Assembly (NCBI GenBank): GCA_947457925.1
Contig: CANGYA010000007.1
Coordinates: forward strand, 1 to 52,094
Direction of reading: 5' to 3'
DNA from: Cytophagales bacterium
GTDB taxonomy: Bacteria; Bacteroidota; Bacteroidia; Cytophagales; Thermoflexibacteraceae
Length of the DNA stretch: 52,094 nucleotides
A program made the translations under genes and the position numbers. The notes under the pieces were generated by a model. That model made no database searches, was not told the DNA's origin, and was given only the letters and a program-made list of their open reading frames with translations. This document shows, one piece after another, positions 3,624 through 14,228 of the stretch (positions are counted from its first letter, which is position 1; the number at the start of each line of letters is the position of its first letter).

Positions 3624-6600
3624 TTACGCCATCTCCCTTAAATCCACTGCCACCACTCTTGAAACTCCCTGTTCTATCATGGTTACGCCATACATAATAT
3701 CCGTACTTGCCATTGTACGTTTATTATGTGTAACAATAATAAATTGTGAATTATCCGAAAATTTACGAATAATATTATTGAATTTATCAATATTGGCATC
3801 ATCAAGCGGAGCATCTACCTCATCAAAAATACAGAACGGTGCAGGGCGTAATAAGTAAAATGCAAACAAAAGAGCCGTAGCTGTTAAGGTCTTTTCTCCA
3901 CCCGATAACTGATTGATAGTCAAGGGTCTTTTGCCTTTGGGTTTGGCTACAATATCTATTTTAGACTCCAAAGGGTCATTCGGTTCTACCAACACCAAAT
4001 CACAAGTATCGTCTTCTGTAAACAGAGTACGGAAAGCATTTTGGAAATATTCACGTATCTTATGAAATGCCTCTAAAAATGTACTTTGGGCTACTGTATC
4101 TATTTCTGCAATGGTACTTAACAAAGAATTTTTGGCTTTTAGTAAGTCATCTTTTTGTGCAATAATGAAGTCGTGCCGTTCTTTTATCTCATTGTACGCC
4201 TCCATTGCCATAGGGTTAATAGAACCAATTTTTTCTAATTGTTCTTTTGTTTGTTTTAGTGTAGCCCGCAGTTCCTCCTCCGACAAAGGACTTAGCGTAA
4301 CTTCGCCTTGCATCAACTCGTCCAAATCTATTTGAAACTCTACAGAAAGCCTATCTTTTACAGAAACTAACTGCAATTTACCTTCATTCAAACTACTTTG
4401 CAGGTTCATCAACAATGTATCCAAATGGTCTTTGCTGCGTTGTGCCTCCCGAATTTGCTTTTCTACTTCAGCTATACTTTCTCGGCTGGCGTAATAGTCC
4501 GTTTCGGCTTCGCTTACCCCTTTTTCTATTGCTATTTTTTCTGCATACAAATTTTCCAATTCATCTTCCGCCACTTCGCTATGGATAGATAATTTTTCTG
4601 CCTCTTTGCTTACCCCTTCCAAATCAACTTGGTTTTGTGCAATTCTTTTTTCTCCTGCCGTAATGCTGCCTTCTTTTTGTGCAATGTCTTTACCCAAATT
4701 TTCCACCCTATTTTTTTGTTGGTAATACAACAAATTTTGTTGGTTAAAAGCATTATTTTTCTGGTTTTGCACCTCATTGCTACTCGCCAAAGCCTGTTGA
4801 GTGCTATTCACTTGTGCTTCTATGGTTTTTAGTTCTTCGGTTAATTGCTTTACAAGTGGTTCGTTATCAAGTATTTCTTCTTTTAGTTCCGTTAATTTTT
4901 CTTCAATATCTTCTTTCCGCAAAGCATTGTTGCGTAGCATTTCTGCATACTGTTCTTGTTTGGTATAAACCGCAATAATTTGCTGCTGCAAAGCTGCTAT
5001 TTGTCTTTGTTTTCGTTGTAGTTCGTCTTTTTGGGTATTAGTGCGTAGGTTTTGTAATAATTGGTTATCTTGTTTTAGTACCAAATCTTTTGCTTGCCAT
5101 TCTGTCTTGAGTTGCTGAATTTCCTCATGCAATTTTTCCAAATTTTTTGCCCTACCAATTCGTTTACCCTCAAACAACCCCACCGAACCACCCGAAAGGC
5201 TATAAGGTCTTTTGATAATTTTTCCATTTTTTGAGATTAAAGTATAAAATTCCTCTAACTCCGCAAGTGGGGTTATGCTGTCATCATCATCAATCAAAAC
5301 ATTTGACAATAACAACTCAAAAAGGCTTTTATATTTTTCGTCAAACTCTATAATTTGCAAAGCTGCCATTGTTTCTGCCAAATTGTTTGGCAACTCCGTT
5401 GGCAATGTTTGTGCGTCTTTGTTGGGTATTCTATCCAAAATAAAAAAACTTGCTTTGCCTTTCCCACTACTATCTAACAAACTAATAGCTTGCAATGCAG
5501 TTGCTTCATTATCAACTACATAGTAATTCATGTAAGGCTCTAAGAAATTCTCAATAGCTACTCTATATTGTGGCTCACAAGTCAAAATATCTGACAACAG
5601 AGGAGCATTTTTCAACTGACCACCTTCTTTTTTCAGAAACTTGATAGCCTCTGGAAAACCCTCCAAATTATCTATCAAAGACTTTGTTAAATTGTATTCA
5701 TTCTGTAAAGCATCTATTCGGCGATTGACTTTTGCCAAGTCATCTTTTTGTTGTTCTATGCTTTGTTGCTTTTCAATGATTTGTTGTTGGCGATTTTCTT
5801 CGGCTGCGGTCAGGTCTTTCAACAACTGCTCTTCGGCTGCCAATTCTTCTTTTAGGTCAATGATTTTGTCCTCAAATTCGGCTAAACCTGCACGTTGTTG
5901 CCCTTCCAAAGACGCATTTTTTTCTAATTCTTGTCGCAAAGAATTGTATTGTACTTGACTGATTTCCAAGTTTTTACGCAAACCAAATAGTTCATCTTGC
6001 TTTTTGCGAAACAAACTACTGTATTGTTGCACACTTTGTTGTAAGTTAGCCGATTGCGTTTTGCTTTCTTCAGTGGCGGTTTTTAGTGCTTCTACTTGCA
6101 CTGCCATTTCTGCCAATAGTTGTTCGGCTGCTATCTTTTCGGCTTGCAAACTTTGTAGTTGTTCTTGGTACATAGTTGTTTGTTTTTTGTCTGCAAACAA
6201 CTGGTTTTCAAGGTTTTTCTGCTTTTCTGCCAAATATTTAAGCTGTTCGGCTCTTAGTTTTTTATCACTTTCGTATTGGCGAATACGGTTGGTGTGTTCT
6301 TGCAAAGTTTTTTGGCGAGAAGTATATAACTTTTCTTTGTCCAATACTACTTTTTTAATACCTTCAATACTATTTTCTTTTTCTTCAATCTGCTTTTGTA
6401 GCTCTTGGCGTTGTTGTGTTTCTGTGTGTAGTTGGGCTTGTAGTCTTTGTACTTTTTCGTTTTGAATACTTACCACTTTTTTACCTAATTCAATACTTTG
6501 TTGTTTGTAAATCTCCTTGATTTGGTAATATTTTTCGGCTTGTTTTGCTTGCCTTTCCAAAGTTTTCATGTTTTTGGCAATCTCAAATAGCAAATCTTCT

Positions 6601-7172
6601 ACCCTTGCCAAGTCTGCATCTGTATCTTCCAGTTTTTTAAGAGTTTCTTTTTTCCGCACCTTGAATTTTGAGATGCCCGCAGCCTCCTCAAACAAGCCAC
6701 GTCTTGAATTGTTGTGGTCATTCAGTATCTCATCAATCATTTTCAACTCAATGATAGCGTAGCTGTCCGAACCGATGCCCGTATCCAAAAACAAATTGTG
6801 AATATCTTTTAAACGGCACGTAACGCCATTAAGCAAATACTCACTGTCACCTGTGCGGAACAGCTTGCGGGTAATAGTAACCTGCGAATATTCGGTAGGC
6901 AATACCGCCTTGTGGTTGTCAAAAGTCAGCGAAACTTCTGCAAGTTGGGTAGGTTTACGGTCTTTTGTGCCATTGAAAATGACATTTTCCATCTTGTCTG
7001 ACCGCAAGTTTTTGGTTTTTTGTTCGCCAAGCACCCAACGAATAGCATCGATGACATTGGATTTTCCGCAGCCATTCGGTCCTACAATGCCTGTGATGCC
7101 TTTGTCAAAGTTGATAACTACTTTGTCGGCAAAAGATTTAAAGCCTTTGATTTCGAGTTTGGTGAGTAGCAT
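3624..7172 (-). CDS. smc: chromosome segregation protein SMC
   Basis: Chromosome-condensing ATPase that forms a dimeric ring with kleisin ScpA and ScpB. At 1182 residues it has the normal full length. Seen in order: N-terminal ATPase half starting MLLTKLEIKGFKSFADK, with Walker A GPNGCGKSN at 31-39; a first long coiled coil (about 165-500); a hinge region around 505-650 (EGFPEAIKFLKKEGG; PYSLSGGSVGLFEGKRIG); a second coiled coil; ABC signature LSGGEKTLTATALL from 1089; and Walker B FCIFDEVDAPLDD from 1113. Only 10 bp separate its ATG from the stop of the upstream toxin-like gene, so no promoter of its own is visible and it is probably read from upstream. A second, partial copy of its first codons lies at 8264-8328. 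Confidence 0.97.
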   Translation of the reverse strand: MLLTKLEIKGFKSFADKVVINFDKGITGIVGPNGCGKSNVIDAIRWVLGEQKTKNLRSDKMENVIFNGTKDRKPTQLAEVSLTFDNHKAVLPTEYSQVTITRKLFRTGDSEYLLNGVTCRLKDIHNLFLDTGIGSDSYAIIELKMIDEILNDHNNSRRGLFEEAAGISKFKVRKKETLKKLEDTDADLARVEDLLFEIAKNMKTLERQAKQAEKYYQIKEIYKQQSIELGKKVVSIQNEKVQRLQAQLHTETQQRQELQKQIEEKENSIEGIKKVVLDKEKLYTSRQKTLQEHTNRIRQYESDKKLRAEQLKYLAEKQKNLENQLFADKKQTTMYQEQLQSLQAEKIAAEQLLAEMAVQVEALKTATEESKTQSANLQQSVQQYSSLFRKKQDELFGLRKNLEISQVQYNSLRQELEKNASLEGQQRAGLAEFEDKIIDLKEELAAEEQLLKDLTAAEENRQQQIIEKQQSIEQQKDDLAKVNRRIDALQNEYNLTKSLIDNLEGFPEAIKFLKKEGGQLKNAPLLSDILTCEPQYRVAIENFLEPYMNYYVVDNEATALQAISLLDSSGKGKASFFILDRIPNKDAQTLPTELPNNLAETMAALQIIEFDEKYKSLFELLLSNVLIDDDDSITPLAELEEFYTLISKNGKIIKRPYSLSGGSVGLFEGKRIGRAKNLEKLHEEIQQLKTEWQAKDLVLKQDNQLLQNLRTNTQKDELQRKQRQIAALQQQIIAVYTKQEQYAEMLRNNALRKEDIEEKLTELKEEILDNEPLVKQLTEELKTIEAQVNSTQQALASSNEVQNQKNNAFNQQNLLYYQQKNRVENLGKDIAQKEGSITAGEKRIAQNQVDLEGVSKEAEKLSIHSEVAEDELENLYAEKIAIEKGVSEAETDYYASRESIAEVEKQIREAQRSKDHLDTLLMNLQSSLNEGKLQLVSVKDRLSVEFQIDLDELMQGEVTLSPLSEEELRATLKQTKEQLEKIGSINPMAMEAYNEIKERHDFIIAQKDDLLKAKNSLLSTIAEIDTVAQSTFLEAFHKIREYFQNAFRTLFTEDDTCDLVLVEPNDPLESKIDIVAKPKGKRPLTINQLSGGEKTLTATALLFAFYLLRPAPFCIFDEVDAPLDDANIDKFNNIIRKFSDNSQFIIVTHNKRTMASTDIMYGVTMIEQGVSRVVAVDLREMA

Positions 7173-7182
7173 ATAGATAGCA

Positions 7183-7620
7183 TTAACCCAAAATACGTTT
7201 ATACTTTCTTTTTAAGAAATAACTTGCTTTTAAACAATTCATAAATTGATTAAAAGTTGTATCATCAAAAGTAGCTTGTAAATAAGTATTTGGATATTCT
7301 ACTAATAATTCCGAAGTATCATAAATATTGTCCCAGCTAAAAACCACATACGTTGTTTTATTGAAGGCAAAAGGTTTTCCATCAGGTTTTGTTCCTATGA
7401 TTTTATCTTTTTCAAAAACATACATAGAAAAATTTTGACCATCATTCACACAACCTATTTGTTTATATTCATTGGGTATGTGGGTATCTTGTGAAGTGGT
7501 AAGTGTATAAACTATTGAAGTATTGTTTTCAACAGCTAATACAAGCAATAATTTATCATTAATATTACCATTCTTAAATTCATAATGAGGAACAAAGAGG
7601 ATATTTTTAGCTGACAACAT
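7183..7620 (-). CDS. putative toxin partner of the Panacea antitoxin (145 aa)
   Basis: No family is recognised with confidence. The start is 2 bp after the stop of the Panacea-domain gene, so the two are translated together. The N-terminus (KNILFVPHYEF, then DKLLLVLAVENNTSIVYTLTTS) has the alternating short beta strands expected of a MazF/PemK-like SH3 barrel, a common RNase toxin fold. The C-terminus is basic (LKASYFLKRKYKRILG). The toxin role rests on its position: known Panacea antitoxins are encoded beside very different toxins. No catalytic residues can be named. It could instead be an unrelated passenger gene. Confidence 0.5.
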   Translation of the reverse strand: MLSAKNILFVPHYEFKNGNINDKLLLVLAVENNTSIVYTLTTSQDTHIPNEYKQIGCVNDGQNFSMYVFEKDKIIGTKPDGKPFAFNKTTYVVFSWDNIYDTSELLVEYPNTYLQATFDDTTFNQFMNCLKASYFLKRKYKRILG

Positions 7621-7622
7621 AA

Positions 7623-8207
7623 CTAATTTTTACGTAAACTTTGATGAAATTCTAAAGCATCAAATGCTGCCTTATAGATACTTTGCTTCATTTTATCACC
7701 ATCTAATAAGGTGGCAAGTTCTAATACATAATTTGATTTTCCGTTTTGTAATGAAAAAAGTAAATCTAAGTTATGTGTATTAACAGTCCTATGCCAGAGT
7801 GTATCTTTTTGATGTAATAATTCTTCCAACTTATTTCCAGAGTAGTTACCATATTCCTTAATAATAGTGTCAATTAAGTTCATTTCTGCATCACTAAATT
7901 CACCATCATCAAATTTTTTATTAGCAATAATAATACTATTATTTTTTGATGGTTTTTCAACAGAAATATACTCTTTGAAAGGCGAATTTTCTATATTATT
8001 AACATTATCAAAAATGTCTTCTGCAACGGGACCATGTACCCAAGCCTTGTATTCCAGCCAAGTTATAGGGACACCATAAGTCTTTATTGCTGTTTCATCT
8101 ATAATATACAACAACTTTAAGGCTTTGGTTTTATACAGTTTATCAACATTTTCCGCCAAATAAATGAGCAGATTACCTATTTTATCCGTTTTTAAACTTT
8201 CAAACAT
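7623..8207 (-). CDS. Panacea (SocA-like) domain antitoxin
   Basis: 194 residues when started at the ATG at 8207. The region KTKALKLLYIIDETAIKTYG..ITWLEYKAWVHGPVAEDIFDNV carries the signature of the Panacea/SocA/GepA fold (KLLY, hydrophobic-Y, xxGPV). This domain neutralises many unrelated toxins. An earlier in-frame start at 8240 is rejected because a promoter -7 element (TATCTTTG) overlaps 8230-8237. The gene is followed 2 bp later by the candidate toxin, and both lie between two copies of the smc 5' end. Its ATG overlaps the stop of the smc-remnant ORF (ATGTTTGA), which could couple their translation. Confidence 0.75.
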   Translation of the reverse strand: MFESLKTDKIGNLLIYLAENVDKLYKTKALKLLYIIDETAIKTYGVPITWLEYKAWVHGPVAEDIFDNVNNIENSPFKEYISVEKPSKNNSIIIANKKFDDGEFSDAEMNLIDTIIKEYGNYSGNKLEELLHQKDTLWHRTVNTHNLDLLFSLQNGKSNYVLELATLLDGDKMKQSIYKAAFDALEFHQSLRKN

Positions 8208-8328
8208 AAAGAGTAAGAGTTTGTATAAACAAAGATACAAAAATAAATAATGATTTTGTAGCTAAATTGATAGAAATTTTGTCGGCAAATGATTTAAAGC
8301 CTTTGATTTCGAGTTTGGTGAGGAGCAT
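8200..8328 (-). pseudogene. smc 5' remnant: 42-codon ORF beginning with the SMC N-terminus
   Basis: The first 17 codons encode MLLTKLEIKGFKSFADK, identical to the start of SMC, then ISINLATK where SMC has VVINFDKG. The remaining codons are unrelated and end in TGA inside the antitoxin start (ATGTTTGA). Over 8278-8328 against 7122-7172 the DNA differs at two of 51 positions, both synonymous (CTC/CTA and TCA/TCT). Weaker similarity continues to about 8264. The remnant ATG lies 15 bp after the nuclease-like gene, as the true smc lies 10 bp after the toxin-like gene. It is a leftover of an smc start displaced by an insertion, or the trace of an incoming copy. Whether it is translated is unknown. 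Confidence 0.7.
8230..8237 (-). promoter_or_regulatory. -7 promoter element TATCTTTG upstream of the antitoxin
   Basis: Exact match to the Bacteroidota -7 consensus TAnnTTTG on the minus strand, about 23 bp before the ATG at 8207. No convincing -33 TTG is seen. It supports the downstream start and would also serve the toxin-like gene and smc. Confidence 0.6.
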
Positions 8329-8343
8329 TTTGATGTGTAATAA

Positions 8344-8922
8344 TTATTTCAAAAAAGGCTGTATAACAGTAACTCCATTTTGCTCCTTAAAACCTTGATG
8401 TTTGTATCTTACATTGTCTTTTTCAAGTTCTGTAATATACCTTTTAACACTTTTATCAAATAAAATAGCTATTTGTTTAAAATGAGTAAGTTCATATCCA
8501 TAATACAAATTGATTAACTCAATGAAATAGGCGACAATAGCTTTTGTGCTTTTAATTTTTTCGGGAATGTGTTTTGCCTCTTCTGATTTCATTTCTATCA
8601 AAAGAATATAATTATTAGTACCAATTTTACAAAAAACCAAGTAGTCACATTTTTTATGTGCATGGTGCTTACGTTTCTCCTCTATTTCGCCTTCACAATT
8701 TCTAATTAACCCATTAGGACGTAAAAAATCTCGACGGTCTGCATCTAACTTTATAGCAGCATAAACCTCATCTATACCATTAATCTCAATAGAAAGTAGT
8801 TGAGTGTTATTATTCTCCAAAGGTTTTTCAATCAACATGAGGCTTTTAGAAGGTGCATAAAAACTTGCCCCTTCAAATGCCTCCTCATGAATAAGAACAT
8901 CAAAAATATCTTGTAATTTCAT
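8344..8922 (-). CDS. putative PD-(D/E)XK-type nuclease (192 aa) paired with an ATPase
   Basis: I recognise no named family. Residues 93-112 (DYLVF, a short gap, then ILLIEMKS) give the D...ExK arrangement (D93, E110, K112) on consecutive beta strands that is typical of the PD-(D/E)XK nuclease core. A basic stretch (KRKHHAHKK) just before it could bind nucleic acid. The start is 2 bp after the ATPase stop, so the two genes are one transcriptional unit and the protein probably works with the ATPase. ATPase plus small nuclease is a common plan in anti-phage systems; that role is inferred. The length is small for a restriction enzyme but ample for a nuclease domain. Confidence 0.55.
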   Translation of the reverse strand: MKLQDIFDVLIHEEAFEGASFYAPSKSLMLIEKPLENNNTQLLSIEINGIDEVYAAIKLDADRRDFLRPNGLIRNCEGEIEEKRKHHAHKKCDYLVFCKIGTNNYILLIEMKSEEAKHIPEKIKSTKAIVAYFIELINLYYGYELTHFKQIAILFDKSVKRYITELEKDNVRYKHQGFKEQNGVTVIQPFLK

Positions 8923-8924
8923 AG

Positions 8925-10244
8925 TTATTCTTCTTCGGGTAAGGTGTCTAAATAAGAATAATAAACCATGTCCGAAACCTCATTTTGTTGGCTAATCACC
9001 TCGTCTATACTATCCGTTTCTATGCCTTTGTTGGTAATCGGAATATTCGTAATAGTGTGGTTACCAAAGTGATAAACAGCTACTTTGTCGCCAGACAAAG
9101 TGCTGTTTTCTTGATAAGCATAGCGTTGCAACAAGTCCGTTTTGCCCTCAAAATCTCTGTTAAGGATTATCAAGGTACTCAATTCTCTCAAAATATAATC
9201 ACTATGCGTACTCACCACAATCCGAATACCTCTGTTCACCATTTTTGCCAAGAAACGGGCTATTTGGACTTGTGTTTTGGGGTGTAGGTTAATTTCGGGT
9301 TCGTCTATCATCAAAACATCTCCCTCTTGTGCCAAATGCCGTAGGTAAATCACTACACCCGACCAAGATTTGACCAAAGAAGAGGTAAGGTACAAAGGAA
9401 TTTGGCTTGCCTCCTTAGTGGGCTGAAACTGCAAATCTCCAAAAGCAGAAACCCCTACACCACCGCCTAATAGGTTTTCTAATTCGGTGGCTAAGTCTGC
9501 GAATATTGTGGGTGGGTTTAAAACGTGCTTGCGGAAATCGTAAGCAAAAAAAACATAGTCTTCTATTGCGATAGGAGCAAAAGGTGTATAAAGTTCTTTC
9601 TTTCTATGTTTTTCAGCTTGGTTTCCAACTACTTCATTATAAAACATATTAATAGCTGTTCTCTCTGCTGGTACAAAATACATTTTTAATAAACCTATCC
9701 TATTAAAAAAAAGATAAGTAATGAATCTTATTATATTTTTTAAAAAGTCATTATATTTTGTTGTTGTTATTATAATTGAAGTGCCATCGAACTTTATATT
9801 ATATTTGATAGATTCAAAAGTTATTTCTTTATCATTTAAATCCCTAAAATAATTTTTAAGCCAAGCTATGTAAAAAAGTTTTAAATATTCTATTTTATAC
9901 AGAAATTTACCTTGTAGCCCCTTAAACGCCATCTCTACAAGAATACTCGTATTATCTTTACTATTAAATCTGTCCTCGAAAAAATTAAAAATTTTACTAT
10001 TAATCTCTTCAAAATTAACTTTTATACCATTAGTTAGATTACTTGACAACTTTAGCTCTTGTGCATACTCTTCAATAATATTTATAGCATCATCTGAGGA
10101 GTCTAAAATTTTAAGTACCCCATACACCAAATAACTCATATACGACTTCCCCGAATTATTTTCGCCAGTAAAAATCGTCAATTCCTTGTCTAAAGAAATT
10201 TCGCCTTTGTGGATTGTCCCTAAATTTTCTACGGAGATTTTCAT
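8925..10244 (-). CDS. AAA/ABC-type ATPase, OLD-like (439 aa)
   Basis: An SMC/RecF/OLD-type ATPase without a nuclease domain of its own. Walker A GENNSGKS is at 27-34, an AERTAI segment (PAERTAINMFYNEV) lies mid-protein, Walker B VLMIDEPEINLHP starts near 310, and a His switch STHS near 345. The 130-residue middle insert is rich in Phe, Ile and Lys. Family members sense invading DNA or damaged ends and drive a partner nuclease; the partner here would be the 192-residue gene 2 bp downstream. The unit has its own -7 element at 10269-10276 and is separate from dnaB. The middle part is more AT-rich than smc and dnaB, which fits acquisition from elsewhere. Confidence 0.8.
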   Translation of the reverse strand: MKISVENLGTIHKGEISLDKELTIFTGENNSGKSYMSYLVYGVLKILDSSDDAINIIEEYAQELKLSSNLTNGIKVNFEEINSKIFNFFEDRFNSKDNTSILVEMAFKGLQGKFLYKIEYLKLFYIAWLKNYFRDLNDKEITFESIKYNIKFDGTSIIITTTKYNDFLKNIIRFITYLFFNRIGLLKMYFVPAERTAINMFYNEVVGNQAEKHRKKELYTPFAPIAIEDYVFFAYDFRKHVLNPPTIFADLATELENLLGGGVGVSAFGDLQFQPTKEASQIPLYLTSSLVKSWSGVVIYLRHLAQEGDVLMIDEPEINLHPKTQVQIARFLAKMVNRGIRIVVSTHSDYILRELSTLIILNRDFEGKTDLLQRYAYQENSTLSGDKVAVYHFGNHTITNIPITNKGIETDSIDEVISQQNEVSDMVYYSYLDTLPEEE

Positions 10245-10352: not shown

Positions 10353-13300
10353 TTAAAACGGCACTTCGTCATTGTTGTTGCCTGCGTACCCAAACGGATT
10401 AGGTGGTAGGTTTCCATTGTCGTTGGGGCTGTCTTGGTTCATTTTGCTGCCCAAAATAATATTGCCTCCGTTGTTATCAAATTCAGAAATGCCACTGTGT
10501 TGGTTAAAAGAACTGCCGTAGTTGCCCATATCTCCGCCAGCAAAGTTTTCTGTTGCGTCTAAATCCGAAAACTTCGTGTACTTGCCAATAAACCGCAGCT
10601 TCACATTGTCCAATGCACCGTTACGGTGTTTGGCTATAATTACTTCGCCTACGCCTACGGTGGGGTTGCCGTTTTCGTCTTGGGTAATGCCGTAGTATTC
10701 GGGACGGTATAAGAATAGTACCATATCCGCATCTTGCTCTATACTATTGTGTATAATAAAATCGTTGGCTACAAAATTGTGTGTAACCTCTACTGTAGCA
10801 TCATATACATCTTCTACGCCCAAAGCTGTAATACTAGTAATTTCGTCCCAATAAATATCAGAATTTGCTAACTGTTTGATTTTAGGATTAGGTATTACAG
10901 TATATATTTTTTCTAAACGATTTCTTGATATACCTCTTGTTGTAATAGCTCCACTATAAGCTATATTCAAATTGTTAGCAAAATCTCGCCAACTCATATT
11001 TAAGTCATTCTTAGCAGGAGCAATTACAAATTGCCATGCTTCTTGTGGAATAACATCTGTATTAGGATTGTGATTTATTTCTTTTAATGCTTGGATTAAT
11101 TCAGGTACTATTTCACCTCGTTTACCATAACAACCAATTTGCTCTAAAAATGCTATTTTATTACCTACATCTTGAATTTGAACATAAAACATATCTCTAT
11201 GCTCCCCTTGCTTAATGGGTGTTACCGTTGTTTGTATTCCAAAACGTAGTAATAAATGTTGCACTTGTTGAGCCAAAATAAAACTTGTTGTACCATAATA
11301 AATAGCTGCATTATCTTTCCTTCCAGCCATTCTTTTCCAACTGATATTTCCGTCTGTTGCCCACAAATGGTGTAAAAACAAAGCTATGTGTTCATTATCA
11401 CACATAAACAAATCATCAGGTAGTTTTTTATCATAAGAACGGACTCTATTAAGAGCTAACTTTTCATACCATTTTGTGATGGGGTGTTTCACTCCATGTG
11501 TTAGATGATAAGGTGAGGTTAGATAGACATGATACCAATTCTTCTGTTGAACTATTTTTGCTTCAATACCAAATAAACTTTGTGCAGTCTGCCTCACAAC
11601 TTCTATATTCAACATATCTGCACTTGTATAATGATATGGTGTATTTGGTAATATACAACCATCTCCAAGTAAATGAGCCAATAAAATTAATTCATCTTTA
11701 CTTAATGGATTTGGTGCATTATCAATTTTCAAATTCCTTGCTACCGCAATTTTATCCCCTACCTTCAAATTATCCAATCTTGTCCAGCCTTCTAACTTAA
11801 AAAACGGGTGATTAGCACTTGCCTTAATAGTTCTTCCTGTGCGTGTTTTAAGTTCAAAAACTTGCTTTTTGCCCGAATAAAAGGCTTTAACCATACTTTG
11901 TTTGCCCAAATGCAAATTATCGTCTATAGACAAACACTGTAAAGTAGTTTGTTGGGTTCTTTCTGCCAACGTCTTAATAGGAATTAATTTGCCTGTCGTT
12001 GCATCAAGCACAAGAGTATCGCCTGTTACACAACCCGATTCTCTCAAATCCGACAACTGCGGTTTCTTATCACCACCACGCACCTCCACAGCACGGCTCA
12101 ACTGCGAAAGGGCAATCACAGGCACGTCCAATTCCTTTGCCAACTGTTTCAAGGCACGAGAAATAGACGCAATTTCTTGTTCACGATTACCGCCTGTTTT
12201 GCTGCCATCGCCACTCATCAACTGCAAATAATCTATGATAATCAACTGAATATCGTGTTGGGCTTTGAGCCTCCGACATTTTGCCCGCAACTCCAAAATC
12301 GTGAGGGCTGGCGTGTCATCTATAAAAATGGGGGCTTCGCTAAGGGTTTGTGTCTTGTGAATGACCTGTTCCCATTCGTAATCTGCCAATTTTCCACTCT
12401 TAATTTTTTCACTTTCCAACTCCGCCTCTGCCGAAATCAAACGGTTTACCAACTGCACAGACGACATTTCTAAGGAAAATATCGCCACACCTTTCTTGAA
12501 CATCACCGCAGCATTTCGCAGTGCCGACAACACAAAAGCCGTATTGTGCGTAACTGTACCGTCTGCCAACAAAAACAAATGGTTGCCGTCTATCTCAAAA
12601 CCATAATAGTCGTCTTCTTTGTCAAAATCTACCCGAATCGGACTCAAATGCCCTTCGCCTGTGCCTAAACAAGTAGATTTTTTGCCTACATTTTTAATCG
12701 GCATTTTGCGTAAATCTCCCCGAATCACACAACCAAAAGTAGATTTTCCTCTGTCGTCTTCCGTATGTGCAAAAGCCCAACAGCCCAAAGAATTGGCTAA
12801 AGTAACTATCTGATTACGCAAATTTTCGTCTGCAAACAACAAAGCATAACGGTCTAAATCCGAACTGTATAAATATTCATAATCTCCGCAAGCATCTATT
12901 AAGCCCGCCAACAATGCCAACCTATTGGCTTTGCTATTGACCAAGTAACTTGCAGGAATGTATAAATCTTCTGTTAAAGTCCAATTATTTTTAGTGGATT
13001 CGTCGTTATTTTCTACTTTTTCTTGATAGACTTTTATCAAATAATCGGCATATTCTTTCAAAGCTGGGCTTTGTTGTACTGCCGTAGCAGTGCTTTGCAA
13101 TGACGTTGGAGGAGTTTGCGTTGCGGGAACAGCCATTGTTAGTTTGGCTTGGTTCAAGACCCCCAAACAGTAACCAAACAAATAAGGCGACACTTTAAGT
13201 TTTCTTTCAGGGTATTCCACAGGCACTCTTACGCCCCAATACGAATTTCTATCTGAACGAGGAATTTGTAAAAATTCATCTACGGTCAAAGTCAATATTT

Positions 13301-14228
13301 CACCTTTTTTGTGTCTGCGAGTATCTTCGTGTACTTGCAAATACAAGATATGTTCACTGTTTACTCTATAATTTATCCCATATCTTTGGCGTACCGAATA
13401 CATTTTGTCATGTCCTTTGCCCAAAGACAAAACATGACGCGGCGTAGAGTCATCTCCCATCAAAACATCTCCAACCTGAATATCCTCTACGTTTTTGGTT
13501 GTGCCATTATATAACAAAACTTTTGTGCCTTTGCCCAAACATTTCCCCATAGCAGGGCGGGCAGCCAAAATAATCAAATCAGATTTTTGCCAACCCGAAG
13601 TGATACGGTCTAAAGCCATGAACCCTGTGGGAACTCCCGTCAAACCGTCTTTGTGGTTACGTCTGGTTTCCAACTCCATAAAGGCTTGGCTCAAAATTGA
13701 CCGCATATCTGCATAATTTTTACGGATATTCGACTCCGAAATATCAAACAAAGACTTTTCTGTAAAATCCAACAACTCAAAAACGTCTGTCGTGTCCTCA
13801 AAAGCCATGCGAAGTACCTCGTTAGATACTCGTATCAAATCTCTTTTAATGGCTTGTTCGGCTACAATTCTGGCGTGAAAAACCACGTTGGCTGAGCTGT
13901 TTACTCTGGTCGTGAGTTGCGTAATGTACGGAATCCCTCCCGACAGTTCCATTTCGCCTGTCTTGCGAAGTTCTGCCACTACGGTCATCAAATCTACAGG
14001 CTCACTCCGCCCAAATAACGAAACAATGGCTTTGTAGATGACCTGATGCCCTTCTTTGTAGAAACTTTCAGGCTTTAAAATTTCTATGACTTCGTTCAAT
14101 GCCTCTTTTTCCAACATCAATGCACCCAAAACAGCCTCCTCTAATTCGAGAGCCTGTGGTGGAACTTTGCCCATCATGGATTGTTCCAACATAGACATTT
14201 TATTGGCAAGAGAACGAAGATTTTTCAT
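10353..14228 (-). CDS. dnaB: replicative DNA helicase DnaB with two inteins
   Basis: Hexameric helicase that opens the replication fork. The product is 1291 residues. Two in-frame inteins (residues 230-562 and 733-1161) interrupt it, and removing them leaves 529 residues, a normal DnaB length. The N-terminal DnaG-binding domain starts PPQALELEEAVLGALMLE. The Walker A ARPAMGK-T is split by the first intein. Walker B is LIIIDYLQLM. SQLSRAVEVR leads to LSDLRESG-SIEQDADMV, split by the second intein. The C-terminus (from about 1235) is a Gly/Asn-rich tail ending NNNDEVPF. Splicing must succeed at both sites for an active helicase, because each intein cuts a motif needed for ATP use or subunit contact. 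Confidence 0.96.
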   Translation of the reverse strand: MKNLRSLANKMSMLEQSMMGKVPPQALELEEAVLGALMLEKEALNEVIEILKPESFYKEGHQVIYKAIVSLFGRSEPVDLMTVVAELRKTGEMELSGGIPYITQLTTRVNSSANVVFHARIVAEQAIKRDLIRVSNEVLRMAFEDTTDVFELLDFTEKSLFDISESNIRKNYADMRSILSQAFMELETRRNHKDGLTGVPTGFMALDRITSGWQKSDLIILAARPAMGKCLGKGTKVLLYNGTTKNVEDIQVGDVLMGDDSTPRHVLSLGKGHDKMYSVRQRYGINYRVNSEHILYLQVHEDTRRHKKGEILTLTVDEFLQIPRSDRNSYWGVRVPVEYPERKLKVSPYLFGYCLGVLNQAKLTMAVPATQTPPTSLQSTATAVQQSPALKEYADYLIKVYQEKVENNDESTKNNWTLTEDLYIPASYLVNSKANRLALLAGLIDACGDYEYLYSSDLDRYALLFADENLRNQIVTLANSLGCWAFAHTEDDRGKSTFGCVIRGDLRKMPIKNVGKKSTCLGTGEGHLSPIRVDFDKEDDYYGFEIDGNHLFLLADGTVTHNTAFVLSALRNAAVMFKKGVAIFSLEMSSVQLVNRLISAEAELESEKIKSGKLADYEWEQVIHKTQTLSEAPIFIDDTPALTILELRAKCRRLKAQHDIQLIIIDYLQLMSGDGSKTGGNREQEIASISRALKQLAKELDVPVIALSQLSRAVEVRGGDKKPQLSDLRESGCVTGDTLVLDATTGKLIPIKTLAERTQQTTLQCLSIDDNLHLGKQSMVKAFYSGKKQVFELKTRTGRTIKASANHPFFKLEGWTRLDNLKVGDKIAVARNLKIDNAPNPLSKDELILLAHLLGDGCILPNTPYHYTSADMLNIEVVRQTAQSLFGIEAKIVQQKNWYHVYLTSPYHLTHGVKHPITKWYEKLALNRVRSYDKKLPDDLFMCDNEHIALFLHHLWATDGNISWKRMAGRKDNAAIYYGTTSFILAQQVQHLLLRFGIQTTVTPIKQGEHRDMFYVQIQDVGNKIAFLEQIGCYGKRGEIVPELIQALKEINHNPNTDVIPQEAWQFVIAPAKNDLNMSWRDFANNLNIAYSGAITTRGISRNRLEKIYTVIPNPKIKQLANSDIYWDEITSITALGVEDVYDATVEVTHNFVANDFIIHNSIEQDADMVLFLYRPEYYGITQDENGNPTVGVGEVIIAKHRNGALDNVKLRFIGKYTKFSDLDATENFAGGDMGNYGSSFNQHSGISEFDNNGGNIILGSKMNQDSPNDNGNLPPNPFGYAGNNNDEVPF
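10746..12032 (-). other. intein 2 of DnaB (429 aa) with LAGLIDADG endonuclease
   Basis: Residues 733-1161, between RESG and SIEQ, the insertion site used by cyanobacterial DnaB inteins. The N-terminal splice block is CVTGDTLVLD (Cys1), block B is SANHPFF, and the C-terminal blocks are VYDATVEVTHNFVAND and FIIHN, with Ser as the first extein residue after it. The two homing endonuclease motifs are visible, LLAHLLGDG (about 849) and LFLHHLWATDG (about 950), each with the acidic residue, so the endonuclease may be active. Confidence 0.93.
12543..13541 (-). other. intein 1 of DnaB (333 aa) inside the Walker A loop
   Basis: Residues 230-562, inserted between GK and T of the P-loop. It starts CLGKGTKVLLYNG (Cys1), has a block B-like NSEHILYL, and ends YGFEIDGNHLFLLADGTVTHN, with Thr as the next extein residue. 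One LAGLIDADG-like motif, LLAGLIDACGDYE (about 439), is seen, with Cys where the motif usually has Asp. A second motif is not evident, so the endonuclease looks degenerate. The splicing residues (Cys1, the His of block B, HN and +1 Thr) are intact. Confidence 0.92.

Follow-up and report, generated by a model that had tools for sequence, protein, structure and literature searches.

We found that the two adjacent genes at positions 8344-10244 of the window (the whole stretch of 52,094 nucleotides that was analysed) belong to the already named PD-T4-4 family of defence systems, of which they are a strongly diverged member and not a new class. Judging from the intact sequence, they probably form a functional defence pair of the PD-T4-4 type. 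We consider it likely that this pair is an anti-phage system in which an ATPase sensor licenses a PD-(D/E)XK nuclease, presumably with abortive infection as the outcome. PD-T4-4/WonAB-type defence would thereby be extended to a genome with two copies. This genome appears to belong to the Bacteroidota, as suggested by a GldN gene and by relatives found on named contigs. Both genes are on the minus strand with the ATPase first, and their main features are as follows:

8925-10244, minus strand: OLD-like ABC ATPase, PD-T4-4_A-like, 439 aa, proposed sensor or regulator (profiles and conserved residues)
10143-10166, minus strand: Walker A motif GENNSGKS, ATPase residues 27-34 (sequence; G27 and K33 in 18/18 sequences)
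9294-9314, minus strand: Walker B motif LMIDEPE, ATPase residues 311-317 (D314, E315 and E317 in 18/18)
9204-9206, minus strand: H-loop histidine H347 of the ATPase, within STHSD (18/18)
8344-8922, minus strand: small putative PD-(D/E)XK nuclease, PD-T4-4_B-like, 192 aa, proposed effector (profile, residues and model)
8587-8646, minus strand: active-site stretch D93...E110-x-K112 of the nuclease (sequence and alignments)

The two reading frames and the 2-bp gap between them are as described in an earlier note, which had proposed an ATPase-plus-nuclease module as a defence candidate. That proposal was reasonable and agrees with both the anatomy and the PD-T4-4 profiles. When we searched PADLOC, the ATPase gave its best match to PD-T4-4_A (PDLC04033, 5e-74, residues 1-430 of 439), the next system being PDC-M47A at 6.6e-53. 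Regarding the nuclease, the best match was PD-T4-4_B (PDLC04037), modest and partial at 5.2e-9 over residues 88-186, followed by PDC-M47B at 5.1e-6. PDC-M47, a PADLOC candidate system, therefore comes second to PD-T4-4 for both proteins, and the two families overlap. PD-T4-4 was obtained by functional anti-phage selection in the E. coli pangenome (Vassallo et al. 2022, PMC9519451), where it sits in an ICE-like element together with PD-T7-2. It has the same two-gene order, ATPase and then nuclease, and a review table lists it as AAA_15 plus a PD-(D/E)XK nuclease (PMC10952713). Since both genes have PD-T4-4 as their best match and the published table gives the same domains, the further statement of the earlier note that the pair matches no named system is wrong.

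The divergence within the family is considerable. The full-length ATPase is 29% identical to a PD-T4-4_A-type ATPase from an E. coli plasmid, and the nuclease is 16% identical to a Klebsiella plasmid protein that itself fits PD-T4-4_B at 3.6e-93. Partners of related ATPases at two other loci (L097 and L101) match PDC-M47B better than PD-T4-4_B, so the nuclease signature is common to a family wider than PD-T4-4.

Conserved residues and predicted folds

In Pfam the ATPase matches AAA_15 at 4.6e-18 and also AAA_21, and no TOPRIM family matched either the ATPase or its small partner at E<=1, which bears out the description of an OLD-like ATPase without a nuclease of its own. An ABC ATPase of the OLD/PtuA type is likewise found in OLD, Gabija, PARIS and Septu. 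OLD, GajA and AriB are described as using a TOPRIM nuclease and Septu an HNH nuclease, whereas the small partner found here carries D...E-x-K instead and matched nothing in Pfam at E<=1 or in NCBIfam at E<=0.1. Among the NCBIfam matches listed for the ATPase (25 of 53), all score far under their cut-offs.

Residues K33, R195, D314, E315 and H347 are invariant in all 18 aligned ATPases, with E315 of the Walker B motif as the presumed catalytic residue. The AlphaFold2 model of this protein is weak (pLDDT 67.6, pTM 0.70). It lies about equally near to UvrA, PtuA, SMC and Rad50 heads (Z of about 11 to 12.6), its fold matches including PtuA of Septu and retrons (Z of about 12); the model resembles ABC heads in general. 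When the ATPase gene was divided into blocks of 30 codons, third-position GC was 0.13-0.27 in the middle of the gene and 0.40-0.53 over the last five blocks. A similar mid-gene dip was seen in the second copy of the same genome and in another locus (L036). We do not claim domain swapping as its cause, because third-position GC also drops in the middle of Smc.

As for the nuclease, we aligned 20 sequences including that of the window, the other 19 being 15-40% identical to it. This set includes the partners of ATPases encoded on plasmids of E. coli, Klebsiella, Enterococcus, Bernardetia and cyanobacteria, as well as one from a phage of Vibrio. No sequence departs from D60, which the earlier note does not mention, from D93 or from K112; at position 110, 17 sequences have E and the other 3 have D. 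The residues D93...E110-x-K112 had been correctly read before, with the motif kept across 20/20 sequences, and a search for active-site variation among homologues gave none beyond this D for E at position 110. In two narrower alignments, one of 7 sequences (the window, its own genome and relatives) and one of 8 (the window plus 7 genome-contig loci), C92, D93, E110, K112 and S113 are all invariant. The D...(D/E)-x-K motif is therefore more than a chance occurrence, as far as alignments can tell.

The AlphaFold2 model of the nuclease is fair (pLDDT 76.5, pTM 0.79). In it, D93 comes directly ahead of one strand (94-100), and E110 is close to where the following strand (103-111) ends, after which there is a long helix (119-141). 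Such a placement of active-site residues relative to strands and helix is what a PD-(D/E)XK fold is expected to show. Foldseek gave no match at E<=0.001 for this model, and its rows mix nucleases with gelsolin-like proteins. In the VIA comparison, restriction-type nucleases such as McrC, Can2, BsmI and BspD6I occupy most of the top 20 rows and unrelated folds appear lower down; the best Z is 5.5, and values up to this one are too low to exclude a common arrangement. Besides, no solved structure matched the nuclease profile by sequence at E<=10. Given that the structural matches are weak, the assignment depends mainly on the conserved residues and the order of the strands, and we propose a PD-(D/E)XK fold for the small protein tentatively.

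Distribution and neighbouring genes

Among 98 relatives, 6 carry the nuclease, and so do 2 out of 395 genomes of the phylum; both counts take in its own genome. It was absent from the one further member of the genus covered by the search. A scan of genome contigs yielded 7 loci. The ATPase-then-nuclease pair occurs on an Enterococcus plasmid and on contigs labelled as Bacteroidota, Gammaproteobacteria and Cyanobacteriota. Searching with the nuclease led to 14 distinct loci, counting the window, and at 12 of them an ATPase gene lies immediately upstream. At L043 the nuclease is accompanied only by a 3' remnant of the ATPase gene, judged by eye (no tblastn match), and at L045 a transposase-like gene, recognised by reading, lies between the two.

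Searching with the ATPase, we obtained matches in 37 plasmid and phage records (34 + 3) and opened six of them; in all six, a gene of 176-210 aa carrying D...(D/E)-x-K follows directly downstream of the ATPase. That these relatives sit on mobile elements follows from the choice of collections, so it does not count as independent evidence. The diverged partners on plasmids and in phage were reached only through the ATPase, as tblastn of the nuclease against the phage and plasmid records gave nothing at E<=0.01, and viral contigs scanned for patterns from the nuclease alignment and from the ATPase yielded no confirmed match. According to these counts in genomes, plasmids and phage, the pair is accessory and widely scattered. 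The phage example is a PD-T4-4-like pair in a Vibrio Peduoviridae phage (L100, 4116-6147), flanked by a CI repressor and an annotated DNA breaking-rejoining enzyme.

The second pair of the window's own genome is diverged from the first and lies on another contig (C14; L030, 5734-7631). Its ATPase again has PD-T4-4_A as best match, and its nuclease fits PD-T4-4_B (8.8e-13) about as well as PDC-M47B (1.4e-12). A more distant ATPase (PD-T4-4_A, 1.8e-30) is present on contig C74 of this genome (L031, 6426-8751); the gene behind it encodes a protein of 247 aa that contains an E-M-K motif and had no PADLOC or Pfam match at E<=0.01 and no NCBIfam match at E<=0.1; these two genes are possibly another variant of the ATPase-plus-partner plan.

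We then analysed the genes next to the pair at 13 loci (L043 was omitted), where 24 genes of 100 aa or more directly adjoin it; 20 of these were scanned. The four unscanned flanks were non-defence by eye: copies of a gene of ~1250 aa (L033 and L042), dnaB in the window and a small transporter-like gene (L039). An earlier neighbour scan, picked by eye, was excluded from the count. At E<=1e-10 in PADLOC, 7 of the 20 flanking genes matched, versus 2 of 20 control genes, all taken from the window's own genome; the difference is not significant (Fisher p 0.13). Five of the seven are AbiLi-like, PDC-S02, an Mrr-like type IV enzyme, SoFic/PDC-S04-like and PDC-M15A. The other two, an ABC-transporter-like ATPase and a TnpB-like protein (by reading), are probably generic matches, and with generic matches set aside by eye the counts are 5/20 versus 1/20 (p 0.18, not significant). 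The trend is in the right direction and proves nothing. A fixed location in core genomes with no link to defence genes had been named beforehand as an argument against a defence role. On this point the outcome is mixed, as the pair is not core, but four loci (L033, L034, L042 and L043) share one site, upstream of what is apparently the same ~1250-aa gene, and the link to defence genes is non-significant.

Comparison with WonAB and alternative mechanisms

The closest studied relative is WonAB from Vibrio cholerae WASA-1, which also combines an OLD-like ABC ATPase with a PD-(D/E)xK nuclease and which its authors connect with both PD-T4-4 and 'OLD-ABC ATPase + Novel REase' (PMC12137116). WonB is a protein of 16.1 kDa with catalytic K71, against 192 aa and K112 in the nuclease described here. 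Variants of WonA K34, R182, E300 and H333 each abolish protection, as does WonB K71A (PMC12137116). Mapped by motif, K33, R195, E315 and H347 of our ATPase would correspond to these four WonA residues in kind and in rough spacing. Together with D60, D93, E110 and K112 of the nuclease, they are clear targets for mutagenesis picked out by the alignments. Overproduced WonB is toxic only together with a WonA whose ATPase works; under overproduction, translation stops while genomic DNA stays intact (PMC12137116). In infected cells, phage DNA is still replicated, the defect being 2.7-fold, with capsid assembly mostly missing, and the authors propose rRNA or tRNA as the target (PMC12137116).

By analogy with WonAB, the mechanism that we find most likely for the pair is one in which the ATPase acts as a sensor of infection and then licenses the nuclease, leading to abortive infection. 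The OLD-like ABC ATPase would probably dimerise via its ATP sites, and its variable insert region would detect a sign of phage infection. The small nuclease would be held in check by the ATPase and activated upon infection. Abortive infection would most likely result from cutting RNA needed for translation, as proposed for WonAB, or from cutting DNA. For this particular copy, the anti-phage activity is inferred, as are the formation of a complex, its trigger, the kind of nucleic acid that is cut and the abortion of infection.

The main rival keeps the family assignment and replaces abortive infection by direct restriction: phage DNA would be cut in an ATP-gated manner as it enters or replicates, and the cell would not be sacrificed. 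DNA endonucleases (McrC, BsmI, BspD6I) are frequent among the weak structural matches of the nuclease, at one locus (L035) a gene for an Mrr-like type IV restriction enzyme overlaps the nuclease gene by 4 bp, and ATPase-gated DNA cutting is established in other systems. Nevertheless, we judge direct restriction to be rather unlikely in view of the published observations on WonAB: this closest studied relative permits phage DNA replication, spares genomic DNA and halts translation.

One could also argue that the pair serves chiefly its own maintenance, with the ATPase as antitoxin and the nuclease as toxin. Its two tightly packed genes adjoin a SocA/Panacea toxin-antitoxin-like module, relatives are found on small plasmids, and one such record has a Txe/YoeB pair nearby. 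However, WonB is non-toxic without WonA, on which grounds the WonAB authors exclude simple sequestration, and PD-T4-4 was isolated as a defence system; a toxin-antitoxin pair is thus very improbable in our opinion. Even harder to credit is a housekeeping role in DNA repair for this ABC ATPase and nuclease. The closeness of the ATPase model to UvrA, SMC and Rad50 heads, as great as that to PtuA, shows a shared ABC fold and nothing more, while the rarity of the pair (just 6/98 relatives and 2/395 phylum genomes, own included) and the occurrence of its relatives on plasmids and in one phage speak against it. An ATPase sensor that licenses a nuclease during infection remains our preferred reading of the pair.

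The smc 5' end and other neighbours of the pair

Downstream of the nuclease gene, we detected an incomplete copy of the smc start, whose ATG is 15 bp past the nuclease stop codon. It is a neighbour of the system and lies outside it. Two further genes, which form a separate module, sit between this partial copy and the intact smc:

8264-8334, minus strand: partial copy of the smc start, first ~22 codons (87% over 71 nt to 7108-7178)
7623-8240, minus strand: SocA/Panacea antitoxin-like gene (Pfam SocA_Panacea, 1.7e-24), part of the separate module
7183-7620, minus strand: 145-aa partner of the SocA/Panacea gene (adjacency in relatives), part of the separate module

The family of the 145-aa gene is present in 8 of 194 genomes of the order, own included. 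A Panacea-like gene lies directly upstream in 6 of the 7 loci from other genomes, and in the seventh the 145-aa gene itself starts close to the beginning of the contig.

The other member of the genus that was searched (L029) has a 77-nt copy of the smc start upstream of smc, 92% identical (4132-4208 and 5020-5096). Between copy and smc it carries a different two-gene module, possibly a toxin-antitoxin, one gene of which has a weak YafQ-like NCBIfam match under the cut-off. The smc start was found at E<=1e-5 in 137 of the 194 genomes of the order, with a second partial copy in only these two; the remaining 57 could not be judged. Scanning 400 kb of the window's own genome (20 stretches of 20 kb) revealed no other gene with such a 5'-copy arrangement. 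The scan covered 591,235 bases in total, as it also included the window and other, partly overlapping loci, and besides the smc copies (window/L068 and L029/L017) it gave a single match, a paralogue-like one in another genome (L033).

The arrangement suggests a cassette landing site at smc. A fuller account would be that the smc 5' end is a recurrent site in the genus at which cassettes of two genes, for immunity or addiction, accumulate or replace one another and bring no integrase with them. Each would leave behind an incomplete copy of the 5' end and give smc a new start; the PD-T4-4-like pair would count among the residents, with the SocA/Panacea module having come later. We hold this account as improbable. 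The finding at the smc 5' end may in any case be of interest for research on the mobility of small defence and addiction modules.

Finally, the product of the dnaB gene on the other side of the pair (window 10353-14228) has 1291 residues and seems to contain two inteins, with matches to Hom_end_hint at residues 230-306 and to Intein_splicing at 749-1161, the latter with LAGLIDADG_3.
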